From Modestobacter altitudinis (lineage in GTDB: Bacteria > Actinomycetota > Actinomycetes > Mycobacteriales > Geodermatophilaceae), in the NCBI RefSeq assembly GCF_005930475.1, contig NZ_SJEW01000012.1:16857-80856 (forward strand): 64,000 nucleotides of DNA, read 5' to 3'. Below are positions 41,136-47,075 of the stretch, piece after piece. The translations under genes were made by a program, and so were the position numbers. Numbering within the stretch: the first letter of the stretch is position 1; every line of letters begins with the position of its first letter. The notes beneath the pieces are model-generated. The model did no database searches, was not told the DNA's origin, and saw nothing but the letters and a program-made list of their open reading frames with translations.

Positions 41136-41456
41136 GGGTCCTCCTCGCGGCCTCCGGCAGCAGGGCGCTGCGCGGGCGGTGCAGCGCAGGACCAGGAGCA
41201 GGGTGGCCCGGCGGCGGCTCCCCCGGTCGACCGACCGACGGGGGGACCCTGACCGCGCCGACCCGGGGGATCGGACGCAGGCTGCGCACATGGTGGCCGA
41301 ACGGTCCCCGCTCGGCCAGCCGACCCAGCGGACCGGCCGCTCGCGAGCAGCGCACCGCCGGGATCGGTCGTCCGCGCTCACGCCTGCGGGCACCGCGCCG
41401 CGACGCGGCGCGGGGTGGACGCGCGTGGCGGGCGATCGGGTGGCAAGCTCCCGATC
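41136..41456. promoter_or_regulatory. Divergent intergenic region upstream of the formate dehydrogenase operon
   Basis: This 321-bp stretch separates the small Cys/His gene from fdhA and must hold the promoters of both. It is very GC-rich with no clear -10/-35 pair, no tRNA-like fold and no selC gene. I see no convincing operator. Read as protein it gives only low-complexity shadow frames. Confidence 0.4.
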
Positions 41457-44400
41457 GTGAAGACGTGGCTCGACTCCTGGCCGGTGTTCCGGCAGCTCAC
41501 CGGCGCGGACCCGCTCGGCCGGGGGGTGGCTGCGCGCAGCAAGGCCACCGAGCAGGTGGTCAGCCGGACGGCGACCGCCGACCGGGTCGTGAAGTCCGTC
41601 TGCCCGTACTGCGCGGTCGGCTGCGCCCAGCGCGTGTTCGTCAAGGACGAGAAGATCGTCCAGATCGAGGGCGACCCGGACTCACCGATCAGCCGCGGCC
41701 GGCTCTGCCCCAAGGGCAGCGCGAGCAAGCAGTTGGTCACCAGCCCGACCCGGGTCACCACGGTCAGGTACCGCCGTCCGTACGCCACGGACTGGGAGGA
41801 CCTGGACCTCGACACGGCGATGGAGATGATCGCCGACCGCGTCCTGGAGGCCCGCGAGAAGGGCTGGCAGGTCGAGGACGAGGGCAAGCGGGTCAACCGC
41901 ACCATGGGCCTGGCCAGCCTGGGCGGCGCGACGCTGGACAACGAAGAGAACTACCTGATGAAGAAGCTGTACAGCGCCCTGGGCGCGATACAGATCGAGA
42001 ACCAGGCCCGCATATAGCACTCTTCGACGGTCCCCGGTCTGGGGACCTCGTTCGGCCGTGGTGGCGCGACCAACTTCCAGGAAGACCTGGCGAACTCCGA
42101 CTGCATCGTCATCGAGGGTTCGAACATGGCCGAGTGCCATCCGGTGGGCTTCCAGTGGGTGATGGAGGCCAAGGCCCGGGGGGCCAAGGTCATCCACATC
42201 GACCCGCGGTTCACCCGGACCAGCGCGGTCGCCGACCTGCACGTCCCGCTGCGCATGGGCACCGACATCGCGTTCCTCGGTGGGCTGATCCGGTACGTCC
42301 TGGACAACGACCTGTACTTCAAGGAGTACGTGGTCGCCTACACCAACGCCGCGGCGCTGGTCGGCGAGGAGTTCGTCGACACCGAGGACCTCGGCGGCCT
42401 GTTCTCCGGCTTCGACCCTGAGCACGGCCACTACGACACCGGCAGCTGGGCGTATGAGTTCGCCGACGAGCCGCACTCCGGCGCCGACGACCCGCAGGGG
42501 TCCGCCGAGCAGGAGGCCGTCGGCGACGACCACGACGTCAAGTCCGCCGACCAGGCGCAGTCGCTGGGCAGCGGTGGGGCGTCCATCCCGGCCAAGCCCC
42601 TGCGGGACGAGACGCTGCAGCACCCGCGCAGCGTGTTCCAGGTGCTCAAGCGGCACTTCGCCCGCTACACCCCGGAGATGGTGGCCGAGGTCTGCGGCAT
42701 CGAGCCGGAGGTCTTCGAGCAGGTCGCGAAGTGGGTCACCAGCAACAGCGGCCGCGAGCGGACGACGGCGTGGGTCTACTCCGTGGGCTGGACGCAGCAC
42801 AGCGTCGGCGCGCAGTACATCCGCAGCTGCTCGATCCTGCAGACGCTGCTGGGCAACATCGGCCGGCCCGGTGGCGGGATCCTGGCGCTGCGCGGGCACG
42901 CCAGCATCCAGGGCTCGACCGACGTCCCGACGCTGTACAACCTGCTGCCCGGCTACCTGCCGATGCCGCACGCCGCCCAGCACTCCACGGTCGACGAGTA
43001 CGTGGCCGACGCCGCCGGCAAGGCGGGCTTCTGGGGCAACAAACGCGCGTACACCGTCAGCCTGCTCAAGGCCTGGTTCGGCGATGCGGCGAGTGCGGAG
43101 AACGACTTCCGGTTCGACTGGATCCCCAAGATCAACGGCGACCACAGCTCCTACCGGACGATCGCGGACATGATCGCCGGGAAGGTGCACGGCTACTTCC
43201 TGGTCGGCGAGAACCCCTCGGTCGGGCACCCCAACGGCAAGATGAACCGGTTCGGGCTGGCCAACCTGGACTGGCTGGTCGTCCGTGACCTGCAGATGAT
43301 CGAGTCGGCGACCTTCTGGAAGGAGGGCCCGGAGATCGAGTCCGGCGAGATGGCGCCGGAGACGATCGGCACCGAGGTCTTCTTCATGCCGGCGGCGACG
43401 CACACGGAGAAGGAAGGCACCTTCACCCAGACGCAGCGGGTGCTGCAGTGGCGGCACAAGGCGGTCGAGCCGCCGGCCGACGCCCGCAGCGACCTGTGGT
43501 TCTACTTCCACCTGGGCCGCATCCTGCGGAAGCGGCTGGCCGGGTCAACGGACCCACGCGACCAGGCGCTGCTGAACCTGACCTGGGACTACCCGACGAT
43601 CGGGGAGACCGCCGACCCCGACGCGGCGGCGGTGCTGCGCGAGATCAACGGCGTGGGTCCCGACGGCAGGGCGGTCAACGGGTACCTCGAGCTCAAGGAC
43701 GACGGGTCGACCAGCAGCGGGTGCTGGATCTACTCCGGTGTCTACGCCGACGAGGTCAACCAGGCCGCGCGGCGCAAGCCGCGTCGCGAGCAGGGCCCGG
43801 TCGCGCTGGAGTGGGGCTGGGCCTGGCCGCTCAACCGCCGCATCCTCTACAACCGTGCCTCCGCCGACCCCGACGGCAAGCCGTGGAGCGAGCGCAAGAA
43901 GTACGTGTACTGGGACGAGGCCGCCGGGAAGTGGACCGGTGACGACGTGCCGGACTTCGAGGCGGACAAGCGGCCGGACTACGTGCCGCCGGAGGGTGCC
44001 CGGGCGCAGGCCGCGATCGGCGGGGCGGACCCGTTCATCATGCAGATGGACGGCAAGGCCTGGCTGTACGCACCGTCCGGTCTGGTCGACGGTCCGATGC
44101 CGACGCACTACGAGCCGGCCGAGTCGGTCGTGGAGAACTTCCTCTACGACCAGCAGTCCAGCCCGACGATCGAGCGCATCGCCGGGCCGTGGAACCGGGA
44201 GAACCCCTCGCTCAGCGAGGTCTTCCCGTTCCAGGTGACCACCTACCGGCTCACCGAGCACCACACCGCCGGTGGGATGAGCCGCACGCTGCCCTACCTG
44301 TCCGAGCTCCAGCCGGAGTTCTTCGTCGAGGTCAGCCCGGAGCTGGCGCAGCTGCGCGGTCTGGTCAACGGCGAGTTCGCCACGCTGGTCAGCGCCCGGA

Positions 44401-44750
44401 CGGCGATCGAGGCGAAGGTGCTGGTCACCGAGCGGATCCGGCCGGTCAAGCTGCGCGGCGGGCAGGTGGTGCACCAGATCGGCATGCCCTACCACTGGTC
44501 CTACAGCGGGCTGTCCACCGGCGACAACGCCAACGACCTGCTGGGCATCGTGCTGGACGCGAACACCCACATCCAGGAGGACAAGGTCAGCACCGCCGAC
44601 ATCGTCCCCGGACGCCGTCCGCGCGGGCCGGAGCTGCTGGAGTTCGTCGAGTCCTACCGGACCCGAGCCGGGGTCGGGTCGGGGAAGGTCGGCGTCAACG
44701 GCCGGGCACCGGACCAGGACCCGAGCGCGATCGAGGAGACCGGCGCATGA
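41457..44750 (+). CDS. fdhA: Formate dehydrogenase major (alpha) subunit, selenoprotein with UAG-encoded selenocysteine
   Basis: The gene is one frame of 1098 codons from GTG 41457, interrupted only by TAG at 42015-42017 (codon 187). Before it are the [4Fe-4S] cysteines C-P-Y-C-A-V-G-C (49-56), the CPKG motif and ENQARI; after it come HSSTVPGLGTSFGRGGATNF and a complete molybdopterin oxidoreductase body. In FdnG/FdhF relatives the residue between ARI and H is Sec or Cys, the molybdenum ligand, so the TAG codes for selenocysteine. A SECIS-like hairpin follows. The enzyme oxidises formate to CO2 with a bis-MGD cofactor. No Tat motif is seen, so the site should face the cytoplasm. It is coupled to fdhB by ATGA overlap. 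Conceptual translations that stop at TAG will wrongly split it in two. Confidence 0.95.
42015..42017 (+). other. In-frame UAG decoded as selenocysteine
   Basis: TAG sits in frame between codons for Ile and His in N-Q-A-R-I-[TAG]-H-S-S-T-V, exactly where formate dehydrogenases carry the catalytic Sec or Cys. No other frame disturbance exists in the 1098-codon gene. UAG-reading tRNASec has been reported for Geodermatophilus and Blastococcus; I infer the same here. Confidence 0.92.
42018..42050 (+). promoter_or_regulatory. Bacterial SECIS element downstream of the UAG codon
   Basis: A stem GGUCCCC (42029-42035) pairs perfectly with GGGGACC (42041-42047) around a GGUCU loop (42036-42040). Below it, a bulged C42028 and a three-pair CGA/UCG lower stem extend the helix. 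The E. coli fdhF SECIS has the same GGUCU in its apical loop, starting 19 nt after UGA, and a bulged base on the 5' side; here GGUCU also starts 19 nt after the codon. SelB would bind this loop. The stem also encodes the conserved T-V-P-G-L-G-T. Confidence 0.88.
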
Positions 44751-45820
44751 CCACTGTCAGCTCAGCGAGCCCGGGTCTCAGCAAGGACACCGGCGTCGTC
44801 TCGGGGAACCGGCTGTACGGGCCACTGCCCGACGTCCAGGGTGAGGCGGGGTACGAGACCGACCACCCGGCGCGGGTCGGGTTCTTCACCGACACGTCGG
44901 TCTGCATCGGGTGCAAGGCCTGCGAGGTGGCCTGCAAGGAGTGGAACACGCTCCCGATGGACGACTCGCACGGCACGAAGGACGCCATGGGGCTGTCCGG
45001 CATGTCCTACGACAACACCGGCCAGCTCGGCGCGAACTCGTGGCGGCACGTGGCGTTCATCGAGCAGAGCCGCGCCGTCGACCTCCCGATGCCGGTGTTC
45101 GGCCGGCCGGGCGATGACCGGCAGGACATCGGGCAGCCGGTCAACCCGATCACCCCGACGGCCGACAGCACGCTGAACGCGCAGACCAGCGTGCTCAACG
45201 CCGAAGCGCTGAGCGAGTTCGACCCGCAGACCGGGCAGAGCGGCAGCGACAAGCAGATCCGCTGGCTGATGTCCTCCGACGTCTGCAAGCACTGCACGCA
45301 CGCCGGCTGCCTGGACGTCTGCCCGACCGGTGCGCTGTTCCGCACCGAGTTCGGCACCGTCGTCGTCCAGGGCGACATCTGCAACGGCTGCGGCTACTGC
45401 GTGCCCGCCTGCCCCTACGGCGTCATCGACAAGCGCGAGGACGACGGCCGGGTCTTCAAGTGCACGATGTGCTACGACCGGCTGACCGACGGGCTGCAGC
45501 CGGCCTGCGCCACCGCCTGCCCGACCCAGTCGATCCAGTTCGGCGACCTCGACGAGCTGCAGGCCCGGGCCGACGCCCGGCTCGCGACGCTCAAGGGGCA
45601 GGGCGTGGAGACGGCGCGGCTCTACGGCCGGGACGAGGCCGACGGCGTCGGTGGCGTCGGCGCCTTCTTCCTGCTGCTCGACGAGCCCGAGGTCTACGGC
45701 TTCCCGCCGGACCCGATCGTCACCACCCGCGACCTGCCGTCGATGTGGAGGGCCGCGGCGACCGGCGCGGCGGTCATCGTCGGCGTCGTCGCCTCGGCCT
45801 TCGTGGGGCGCAAGCGATGA
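44747..45820 (+). CDS. fdhB: Formate dehydrogenase iron-sulfur (beta) subunit
   Basis: The 357-residue protein has four [4Fe-4S] cysteine clusters: CIGCKACEVACKEW (from residue 53), CKHCTHAGCLDVCPTG, CNGCGYCVPACPYG and CTMCYDR...CATACPTQ. The C-terminus has one transmembrane helix (MWRAAATGAAVIVGVVASAF) followed by basic residues, as in FdnH-type subunits. It passes electrons from FdhA to the membrane subunit. The ATG overlaps the fdhA stop. An insert between clusters one and two (about residues 75-165) contains the conserved SWRHVAFIEQ region. Confidence 0.95.
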   Translation: MTTVSSASPGLSKDTGVVSGNRLYGPLPDVQGEAGYETDHPARVGFFTDTSVCIGCKACEVACKEWNTLPMDDSHGTKDAMGLSGMSYDNTGQLGANSWRHVAFIEQSRAVDLPMPVFGRPGDDRQDIGQPVNPITPTADSTLNAQTSVLNAEALSEFDPQTGQSGSDKQIRWLMSSDVCKHCTHAGCLDVCPTGALFRTEFGTVVVQGDICNGCGYCVPACPYGVIDKREDDGRVFKCTMCYDRLTDGLQPACATACPTQSIQFGDLDELQARADARLATLKGQGVETARLYGRDEADGVGGVGAFFLLLDEPEVYGFPPDPIVTTRDLPSMWRAAATGAAVIVGVVASAFVGRKR

Positions 45821-45906
45821 GCCACGACCACTCGCCAAAAGCACGCCTTTGGCGACCGGAGCCCTCGCCGAAGGCGTGCTCCTGGCGACAGGAGGTGGCG
45901 GCGTGA
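45817..45906 (+). CDS. Possible 29-residue reading frame across an intergenic palindrome
   Basis: An ATG at 45817 overlaps the fdhB stop (ATGA), and the frame runs to a TGA at 45904-45906, overlapping the GTG of the next gene. It reads MSHDHSPKARLWRPEPSPKA then CSWRQEVAA, with an internal SPKA-x-x-WR repeat produced by the palindrome. The double start-stop overlap would suit translational coupling across the gap, but the peptide may have no function of its own. Confidence 0.3.
   Translation: MSHDHSPKARLWRPEPSPKACSWRQEVAA
45840..45880. repeat. Palindromic repeat between fdhB and the NrfD-type gene
   Basis: AGCACGCCTTTGGCGA (45840-45855) pairs with TCGCCGAAGGCGTGCT (45865-45880) with a single G-U wobble and a 9-nt loop. 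It lies inside the operon, so it may stabilise or trim the mRNA and set the ratio of subunits rather than terminate. The sequence style (CGCC-AAAAGCACGCC-TTTGGCG) suggests a dispersed repeat. Confidence 0.7.
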
Positions 45907-47075
45907 GCGAGCAGCCGACGAGCGGGAACGAGCCGGCCGGTGAGGCGCCGCTGACACCCGGCGCCGGCTGGCACCGGGCCGGCGGGGAGGACCTCACCAA
46001 GCCGCGGCGCAAGCGCCGCCGCGGTGGTGGCGGCTGGGGAAGTGGTAACCGCGAGGCGGCCATGGTGCCGGACGCGGAGTTCAGCTCCTACTACGGCCGG
46101 CAGATCATCAAGTCGCCGACCTGGAAGAACCCCGAGGTCCCGATCTACTTCTTTATGGGGGGCGCGGCCGGCACCTCGTCGGTGATCGCCGCGCTGGCGG
46201 AGTTCACCGGCCGGCCGAAGCTCGCCCGCAACGCTGAGTACGCCGCGGGGGTCGGTGCGCTGGCCTCGGTCGTGCTGCTGATCGACGACCTCGGCCGGCC
46301 GGAGCGGTTCCTGCACATGCTGCGGGTGTTCAAGCCGACGTCGCCGCTGTCGGTGGGCTCCTACATCCTGTCGCCGTTCAGCGCGCTGGCCTCCGCGGCG
46401 GCCGCGGTGCGGCTGCTGGACCTGAAGCCGGTGTACGGCCTGGCCACCCGGGTGCTGCCGTTCCTGCCGTCGATCTCGGGTGCGTTCCCGGTGCTGCGCA
46501 AGGCCTCGGCGGTGGGCGCGGCTGCGTTCGGCGGGCCGATGGCGACCTACACCGCGGTGCTGATCGCGAACACCGCCGTCCCGTCGTGGCACGCGCCGTA
46601 CGACGAGCTGCCGTTCGTGTTCGCCGGGTCGGCGATGGCCGCCGGCGGTGGCGTCACCATGGCGCTGACCCCGGTCGACGAGGCCGGGCCGTCGCGCAAG
46701 GTGGCGCTGACCGGCGTGGCCCTCGAGCTCGCGGCGATGCACCGGGTCGAGCACGGGCACGGCATCGTCAGTGAGCCGTACTCCATCGGCAAGGCCGGGA
46801 AGCTGCTCCGGGCGGCCAAGACGGCGACCGTGAGCGGGGCCGGGGTGACCGCGCTGCTCGGCCGGACCCGGGCCGGCTCGGTGGTCGGCGGCGTGCTGCT
46901 GGCGACCGGTTCGCTGCTGACCCGGATGGGCGTGTTCGAGGCCGGCATGGCCAGCGCCAAGGACCCGAAGTACACGGTGATCCCGCAGCGTGCGCGGCTC
47001 GAGGCCCGTCAGGCCGAGGCCGCTGCCCGGGCCGGCACCGACGACCCGCACGAGGCGAAGTCCGTCGTCCGCTGA
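45903..47075 (+). CDS. NrfD/PsrC-type membrane subunit of formate dehydrogenase
   Basis: The 390-residue protein has a basic, glycine-rich cytoplasmic N-terminus (about 80 residues, KPRRKRRRGGGG) and then about eight to nine hydrophobic segments with the NrfD motif YFFMGGAAGTSSVIAALAEF and LLIDDLGRPERFLHMLRVFKPTSPLSVGSYIL. NrfD proteins bind quinone and replace the cytochrome-b subunit of E. coli FdnI, so the complex should reduce menaquinone. GTG 45903 follows AGGAGG at 45890-45895. It is the last gene of the fdh operon. Confidence 0.9.
   Translation: MSEQPTSGNEPAGEAPLTPGAGWHRAGGEDLTKPRRKRRRGGGGWGSGNREAAMVPDAEFSSYYGRQIIKSPTWKNPEVPIYFFMGGAAGTSSVIAALAEFTGRPKLARNAEYAAGVGALASVVLLIDDLGRPERFLHMLRVFKPTSPLSVGSYILSPFSALASAAAAVRLLDLKPVYGLATRVLPFLPSISGAFPVLRKASAVGAAAFGGPMATYTAVLIANTAVPSWHAPYDELPFVFAGSAMAAGGGVTMALTPVDEAGPSRKVALTGVALELAAMHRVEHGHGIVSEPYSIGKAGKLLRAAKTATVSGAGVTALLGRTRAGSVVGGVLLATGSLLTRMGVFEAGMASAKDPKYTVIPQRARLEARQAEAAARAGTDDPHEAKSVVR

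Follow-up and report, generated by a model that had tools for sequence, protein, structure and literature searches.

A TAG-interrupted formate dehydrogenase gene of Modestobacter altitudinis and its predicted UAG-coded selenocysteine

The fdhA locus and its SECIS hairpin

The window, a stretch of 64,000 nucleotides, contains on its forward strand a gene for the catalytic subunit of formate dehydrogenase (fdhA, 41457..44750). The gene starts with GTG (an alternative in-frame GTG start lies at 41415) and its frame comprises 1097 residues followed by the terminal stop. This frame contains a single internal stop, a TAG at residue 187 (42015..42017, forward strand), which is the predicted selenocysteine (Sec) codon and is immediately preceded by an ATA isoleucine codon (42012..42014, forward strand) that is invariant among the TAG-containing fdhA genes of the family. 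The read-through protein matches the NCBIfam formate dehydrogenase model NF041513 with 1901 bits (cut-off 1400) over residues 4-1069 of 1097, and contains Fe4S4, molybdopterin and dinucleotide-binding domains. Two further genes follow on the same strand: an fdhB-like 4Fe-4S subunit (44747..45820), whose ATG overlaps the fdhA stop and whose best model, TIGR01582, scores below its cut-off; and an NrfD-like membrane subunit (45903..47075; PF03916; start as given by a mechanical ORF call), which is likely the third subunit of the complex.

At the interrupted position, TGA is found in all 70 of the aligned homologues from other families (26 chosen among the survey rows listed, and 44 named loci). 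This confirms the original prediction that a single in-frame TAG interrupts an otherwise intact fdhA at the Sec position.

Downstream of the TAG is a SECIS hairpin (42029..42047, forward strand; nucleotides 15-33, with the T of TAG as nucleotide 1) with the stem GGTCCCC/GGGGACC and the apical loop GGTCT (42036..42040, forward strand; nucleotides 22-26). The loop includes G23 and U24, which we take to be the SelB contacts and which are invariant (G23 and T24 in the DNA) in 118 TAG and 26 TGA fdhA genes. The pairing was followed in 104 TAG and 70 TGA rows, a set in which unnamed and named loci are mixed, some of them very probably from the same genomes, and from which one locus (L243) was dropped. 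Pair 18-30, which joins two third codon positions, is kept in 174 of these 174 rows as C-G, T-A, G-C, G-T or T-G; in shuffled rows the mean is 85 and the most is 109 of 174. Pair 21-27, also between third positions, is G-C in one locus (L138) instead of the usual C-G. The hairpin is therefore retained, with its GGTCT loop and third-position covariation, across the change between TGA and TAG. Pair 15-33 is formed in 99 of the 104 TAG rows versus 27 of the 70 TGA rows, which gives the UAG lineage a stem with one additional pair. A hairpin is placed likewise in 22 TAG-coded UGSC loci of the family with a different loop sequence, AGTGT in 21 of them and AGTCT in one (L187). GGTCT is also part of the SECIS that PMC3834832 prints for E. 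coli.

Selenocysteine machinery and the predicted reading of UAG

The genome to which the window belongs was searched for selC with a CUA anticodon and for selA, selB and selD, as had been proposed together with the idea that UAG is the Sec codon of fdhA; all of them were found, which supports that idea. The tRNASec gene, with anticodon CTA, lies at G000:C128:104909-105000 and scores 66.9 bits against the Rfam model RF01852, above its cut-off, and a tRNASec pattern that leaves the anticodon open finds a single gene in this genome, the one with CTA, and none with UCA. It immediately precedes selA and selB and is divergent from selD. These three genes are present and intact (profile scores 417 bits for selA, 280 for selB and 378 for selD), and selD is of the Cys type, with cysteines in its N-terminal HGGGCACK. 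RF01852 alone lacks specificity: it has matches in 14 of 14 control genomes, above the cut-off in 5, and a second above-cut-off match in the Modestobacter genome (48.7 bits) is a tRNA-Ser according to ARAGORN. The tRNASec assignment therefore also rests on the score, the 96-nt form and the neighbouring genes.

UAG is still used as a stop codon in this genome. A mechanical ORF call over 98 kb gives 74 ORFs, which end in TGA (64), TAG (9) or TAA (1); one of the nine TAG-ending ORFs is the N-terminal piece of fdhA, and the other eight all match Pfam models, one of them weakly. The RF1 gene prfA is also present and intact, without an internal stop. Since UAG is still a stop in ordinary genes, the recoding must be local, and a global reassignment of UAG was rejected on the evidence of these ORFs and of prfA. 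No second TAG selenoprotein was found in the genome among the two families searched, UGSC giving no match at E 1e-10 and AhpC/TSA giving eight matches, all eight without a stop. A scan of the 98 kb for other TAG-interrupted frames with high GC3 produced a long list, apparently made up mostly of wrong frames.

The pairing of TAG in fdhA with a CUA tRNASec extends across the Geodermatophilaceae. Among 112 genomes of the family, counted by eye, an fdhA match at E 1e-50 is present in 101, and the tRNASec anticodon is CTA in 101, TCA in seven and without a match in four. The fdhA Sec codon is TAG in 98 of the 112 genomes and was seen as TGA in none; the other 14 have no fdhA match, or only pieces without the Sec codon (G034, G080 and G096). 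The sequences of all 118 TAG matches from the 98 genomes were read, and each has its TAG at the same codon. CTA tRNASec is found in 96 of these 98 genomes, and the two without a tRNA match are incomplete (72% and 80%). The original prediction had placed the gene in a UAG-decoding lineage, which is right at the level of the family, and the closest named fdhA is that of Modestobacter excelsi 1G6 (96%).

The seven genomes with TCA tRNASec (G067, G069, G070, G071 and G073-G075; L170-L176) belong to three genera (g6, g7 and g8). selA is present in them and fdhA gave no match in any of the seven, while the UGSC genes found among these genera (in G067 and G073) contain no stop. A tree of 35 SelA rows places the TCA group on one side of a branch with support of 100/100; the group has 8 rows and includes G068, a genome without a tRNA match that was assigned to it by genus. 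In a survey of 397 genomes of the order, one TGA is present in 68 of 68 fdhA rows of other families among those listed, and the tRNASec of other families has TCA in 74 of 75 rows among those listed. The exception, a CTA tRNASec at G230:C194:815-849, is on a contig of a metagenome-assembled genome (MAG) that also has a TCA copy; contamination from Geodermatophilaceae is likely because the TCA gene is in the same MAG.

The survey also provided several observations on individual genes. The pair that closes the selC anticodon loop is C-G in the CUA tRNASec; in the three genera with UCA, and in most of the other-family rows listed, it is T-A. C-G is also found in three UCA tRNASec of other families (G126, G211 and G420). 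In G080, which is 99% complete, both fdhA copies (L148 on C4 and L149 on C12) are without the stretch that holds the Sec codon and the SECIS, with a change of frame. The likeness of the two deletions suggests that a repeat or hairpin common to both copies was misassembled, and a real loss is possible. One TGA-containing fdhA of another family (L117, G209:C295) carries a further TAG, 23 codons upstream, as well as a leucine in place of the conserved histidine after Sec, and may be a decaying gene or a MAG error.

Our analysis suggests that the fdhA TAG, which occupies the UGA Sec position of the homologues in other families, is very likely decoded as Sec by SelA and SelB with the tRNASec(CUA) of the genome. 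This is a prediction from sequence, to which we give a probability of about 0.93. SerRS would charge the tRNASec(CUA), SelA would convert the seryl-charged tRNA to its Sec form, and SelB would deliver the Sec-tRNA to a UAG that has a hairpin with a GGUCU loop at a fixed distance downstream. At the fdhA UAG the tRNASec(CUA) would compete with RF1 instead of RF2, and UAG codons that lack the hairpin would still terminate translation.

Readthrough of UAG occurs in bacteria, and an ordinary suppressor or near-cognate tRNA might read this codon without SECIS or SelB; this is highly improbable, as hairpin and loop alike have been retained despite the change of codon and other genes still end at TAG. 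We give even less credence to a nonsense mutation or a sequencing error, by which fdhA would be a pseudogene or would be made as two pieces. ORF finding does split fdhA into two ORFs, and the relatives in the databases are C-terminal pieces: a search with the C-terminal ORF gave, among the best 120 of 7996 matches, 119 relatives besides its own entry, all of 816-923 amino acids and each with two precomputed Pfam domains and no Fe4S4 domain. This agrees with the expectation that standard gene callers would split the gene. However, a TAG at the same codon in every TAG match of the family with no TGA there, the conservation of both flanks, the covariation in the SECIS and the CUA tRNASec in most family genomes all argue against a chance lesion. 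The formate dehydrogenases of the Geodermatophilaceae are misannotated because their genes are split in the databases. The chance that UAG is read as pyrrolysine through a tRNAPyl is negligible, for although ARAGORN labels the CTA tRNA gene tRNA-Pyl, apparently from its anticodon only, the tRNA scores as tRNASec in Rfam and adjoins selA, selB and selD, PylS has no match in the genome at E 0.001 (the set of 14 control genomes, with Methanosarcina acetivorans among them, has one genome above the cut-off, not named by the tool), and the homologues of other families have UGA at the TAG position.

Proposed codon switches and the codon before TAG

A second fdhA copy is found in some genomes of the family; in most cases it shares 66-76% identity with the gene in the window. 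The relationships of these genes were analysed in an unrooted tree of 96 proteins, drawn from 175 aligned rows by leaving out by hand the named family loci, near-copies and some named outgroups; another tree has 73 rows. In the 96-protein tree the TAG genes form five clades, and the best tree needs 5 codon changes, with a 5-95% bootstrap range of 5-5. None of 200 bootstrap trees contains a single TAG group, and forcing a single TAG clade costs 693 log-likelihood units and is rejected (p-AU 3e-5); the starred branches of the tree alone force at least four codon changes. When all 118 TAG genes are placed in a larger, quickly built tree, the TAG clades have 109, 5, 2, 1 and 1 genes, and the small clades fall among TGA genes of other families. 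Contamination is unlikely for six of the nine genes in the small clades, because they are on contigs of at least 140 kb, one of which (G001:C11) also carries a CTA tRNASec.

The tree points to about five separate codon switches in fdhA, which probably reflect repeated transfer of the gene from UGA-decoding relatives and conversion of its Sec codon in the recipient. As the trees suggest, the tRNASec anticodon would have changed from UCA to CUA within the Geodermatophilaceae, and fdhA would later have been acquired from UGA-decoding actinobacteria, its Sec codon then being converted to UAG. The five clades would also be explained by a single switch to TAG and several later returns to TGA, and the direction of codon change is not readable from an unrooted tree alone, but we consider this account improbable in view of the TGA in every aligned gene of other families and of the small TAG clades that sit among them, with the number of changes that the starred branches force. 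The change from TGA to TAG needs two base changes. In E. coli, wobble allows UGG to be read as Sec (PMC3834832), and one may speculate that UGG was a bridge during the original switch from UGA to UAG.

The codon before TAG is ATA in all 118 TAG fdhA genes, which represent 73 distinct 63-nt contexts, and the codon before TGA in 26 fdhA genes of other families is ATT in 20, ATA in 5 and ATC in 1 (the 118 and the 26 are loci of the survey genomes only). ATA is otherwise rare in the TAG genes, the other isoleucine codons in 104 rows being ATC (3256), ATA (68) and ATT (9), that is, ATA in 68 of 3333, or 2%. Codon columns were compared in a set that mixes unnamed and named loci, some very probably of the same genomes, and from which L117 and L243 were dropped. 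Among 934 well-filled columns, A or T is the third base in every row only at the codon before TAG and at the SECIS loop codon, the column mean being 3%. In 69 TGA rows the preceding codon is ATT (57), ATA (8), ATC (2) or GTT (2), so that A or T is favoured and is mostly T. The TAG-coded UGSC genes have an aspartate codon before TAG, which is GAT in 13 of 22 loci versus 8 of 214 nearby aspartate codons. RNA structure is not favoured as the cause of the ATA: in ensemble predictions, with L243 dropped, the nucleotide that precedes the Sec codon seldom pairs (mean pairing of 0.07 for the TAG set and 0.14 for the TGA set). A test of TAG against ATA in independent pairs gave on average 2.3 of 4 pairs changing the same way, 0 the opposite way and 1.7 without a difference, which is far too few for significance; because the independent switches are too few for a correlation test, the case for ATA rests on its invariance at a synonymous site.

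These observations suggest that AUA before UAG is a P-site decoding context tuned to the stop codon and its release factor. From its invariance, the P-site AUA would be part of the signal, perhaps by weakening RF1 or by slowing the ribosome. We regard as evenly balanced a more general proposal, in which the Sec codon would form one recoding signal with the codon that precedes it, the two being retuned together, as AUU-UGA in most UGA-decoding actinobacteria and as AUA-UAG in the Geodermatophilaceae. An fdhA that crosses the family boundary (about five times in the tree) would gain the host's Sec codon and the AUA with its SECIS unchanged, and the P-site codon would be a third cis element of bacterial Sec insertion, matched to RF1 or RF2. 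In the literature examined, from which most subscription journals are absent so that the result is weak, nothing was found on whether the codon that precedes Sec has an effect in bacteria.

Alternatively, the ATA may have no function and may have been inherited by descent, or copied together with TAG by gene conversion. The nearest TGA relative of the single gene L142 already has ATA, as does one of the two nearest to L144-L147, and in such cases no switch need be assumed. Gene conversion from the resident TAG copy was also considered as the route of the codon change itself; the local identity in six same-genome fdhA pairs shows no clear pattern in either direction, and no clear excess toward the resident TAG copy. 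We consider this explanation possible but rather unlikely, since it is opposed by the rarity of ATA among the other isoleucine codons, by the two columns that alone end in A or T in every row, and by the preference for GAT before TAG in the UGSC genes.

Comparison with known systems

UAG-coded Sec is a rare natural case of an extra amino acid that has been moved to another codon. The survey brackets this switch, in that three genera have UCA, the others have CUA and one SelA branch divides them. The gene tree suggests that the difference in code is no bar to the transfer of fdhA between families, the codon being converted each time, and the constancy of ATA before TAG points towards a cis signal on the 5' side of the Sec codon.

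UAG-coded selenocysteine in the Geodermatophilaceae is already known, reportedly from Mukai et al. in 2016, and the window adds a further member. The UGA-coded formate dehydrogenases of other Actinomycetota have the homologous enzyme, Sec position, hairpin geometry and loop in common with the gene described here, but they combine UGA with a UCA tRNASec and their preceding codon is mostly ATT. Pyrrolysine coding likewise uses UAG and a CUA tRNA, whereas here PylS has no match and the tRNA and its neighbours are those of a Sec system. In the engineered E. coli system (PMC3834832), UAG, a SECIS and tRNASec(CUA), acting with SelB, give a selenoprotein in competition with RF1, as we propose here; that system is engineered and overexpressed, whereas the present one is natural.

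The closest comparison is with the UAG-decoding system of the Geodermatophilaceae itself. PMC5330540 describes CUA tRNASec in three genomes of the family, together with TAG-coded formate dehydrogenase and UGSC proteins and a TAG-coded AhpC; the CUA tRNASec, the TAG at the formate dehydrogenase Sec codon and the family are common to that system and to ours. Our analysis differs in that it concerns another species and includes a map of 112 genomes, the genera with UCA, several TAG clades of fdhA and the ATA-TAG rule. In the portions of the earlier literature that we examined there is no such family-wide map, and the genera with UCA, the ATA rule and the division of the TAG genes into five clades are likewise absent from them.
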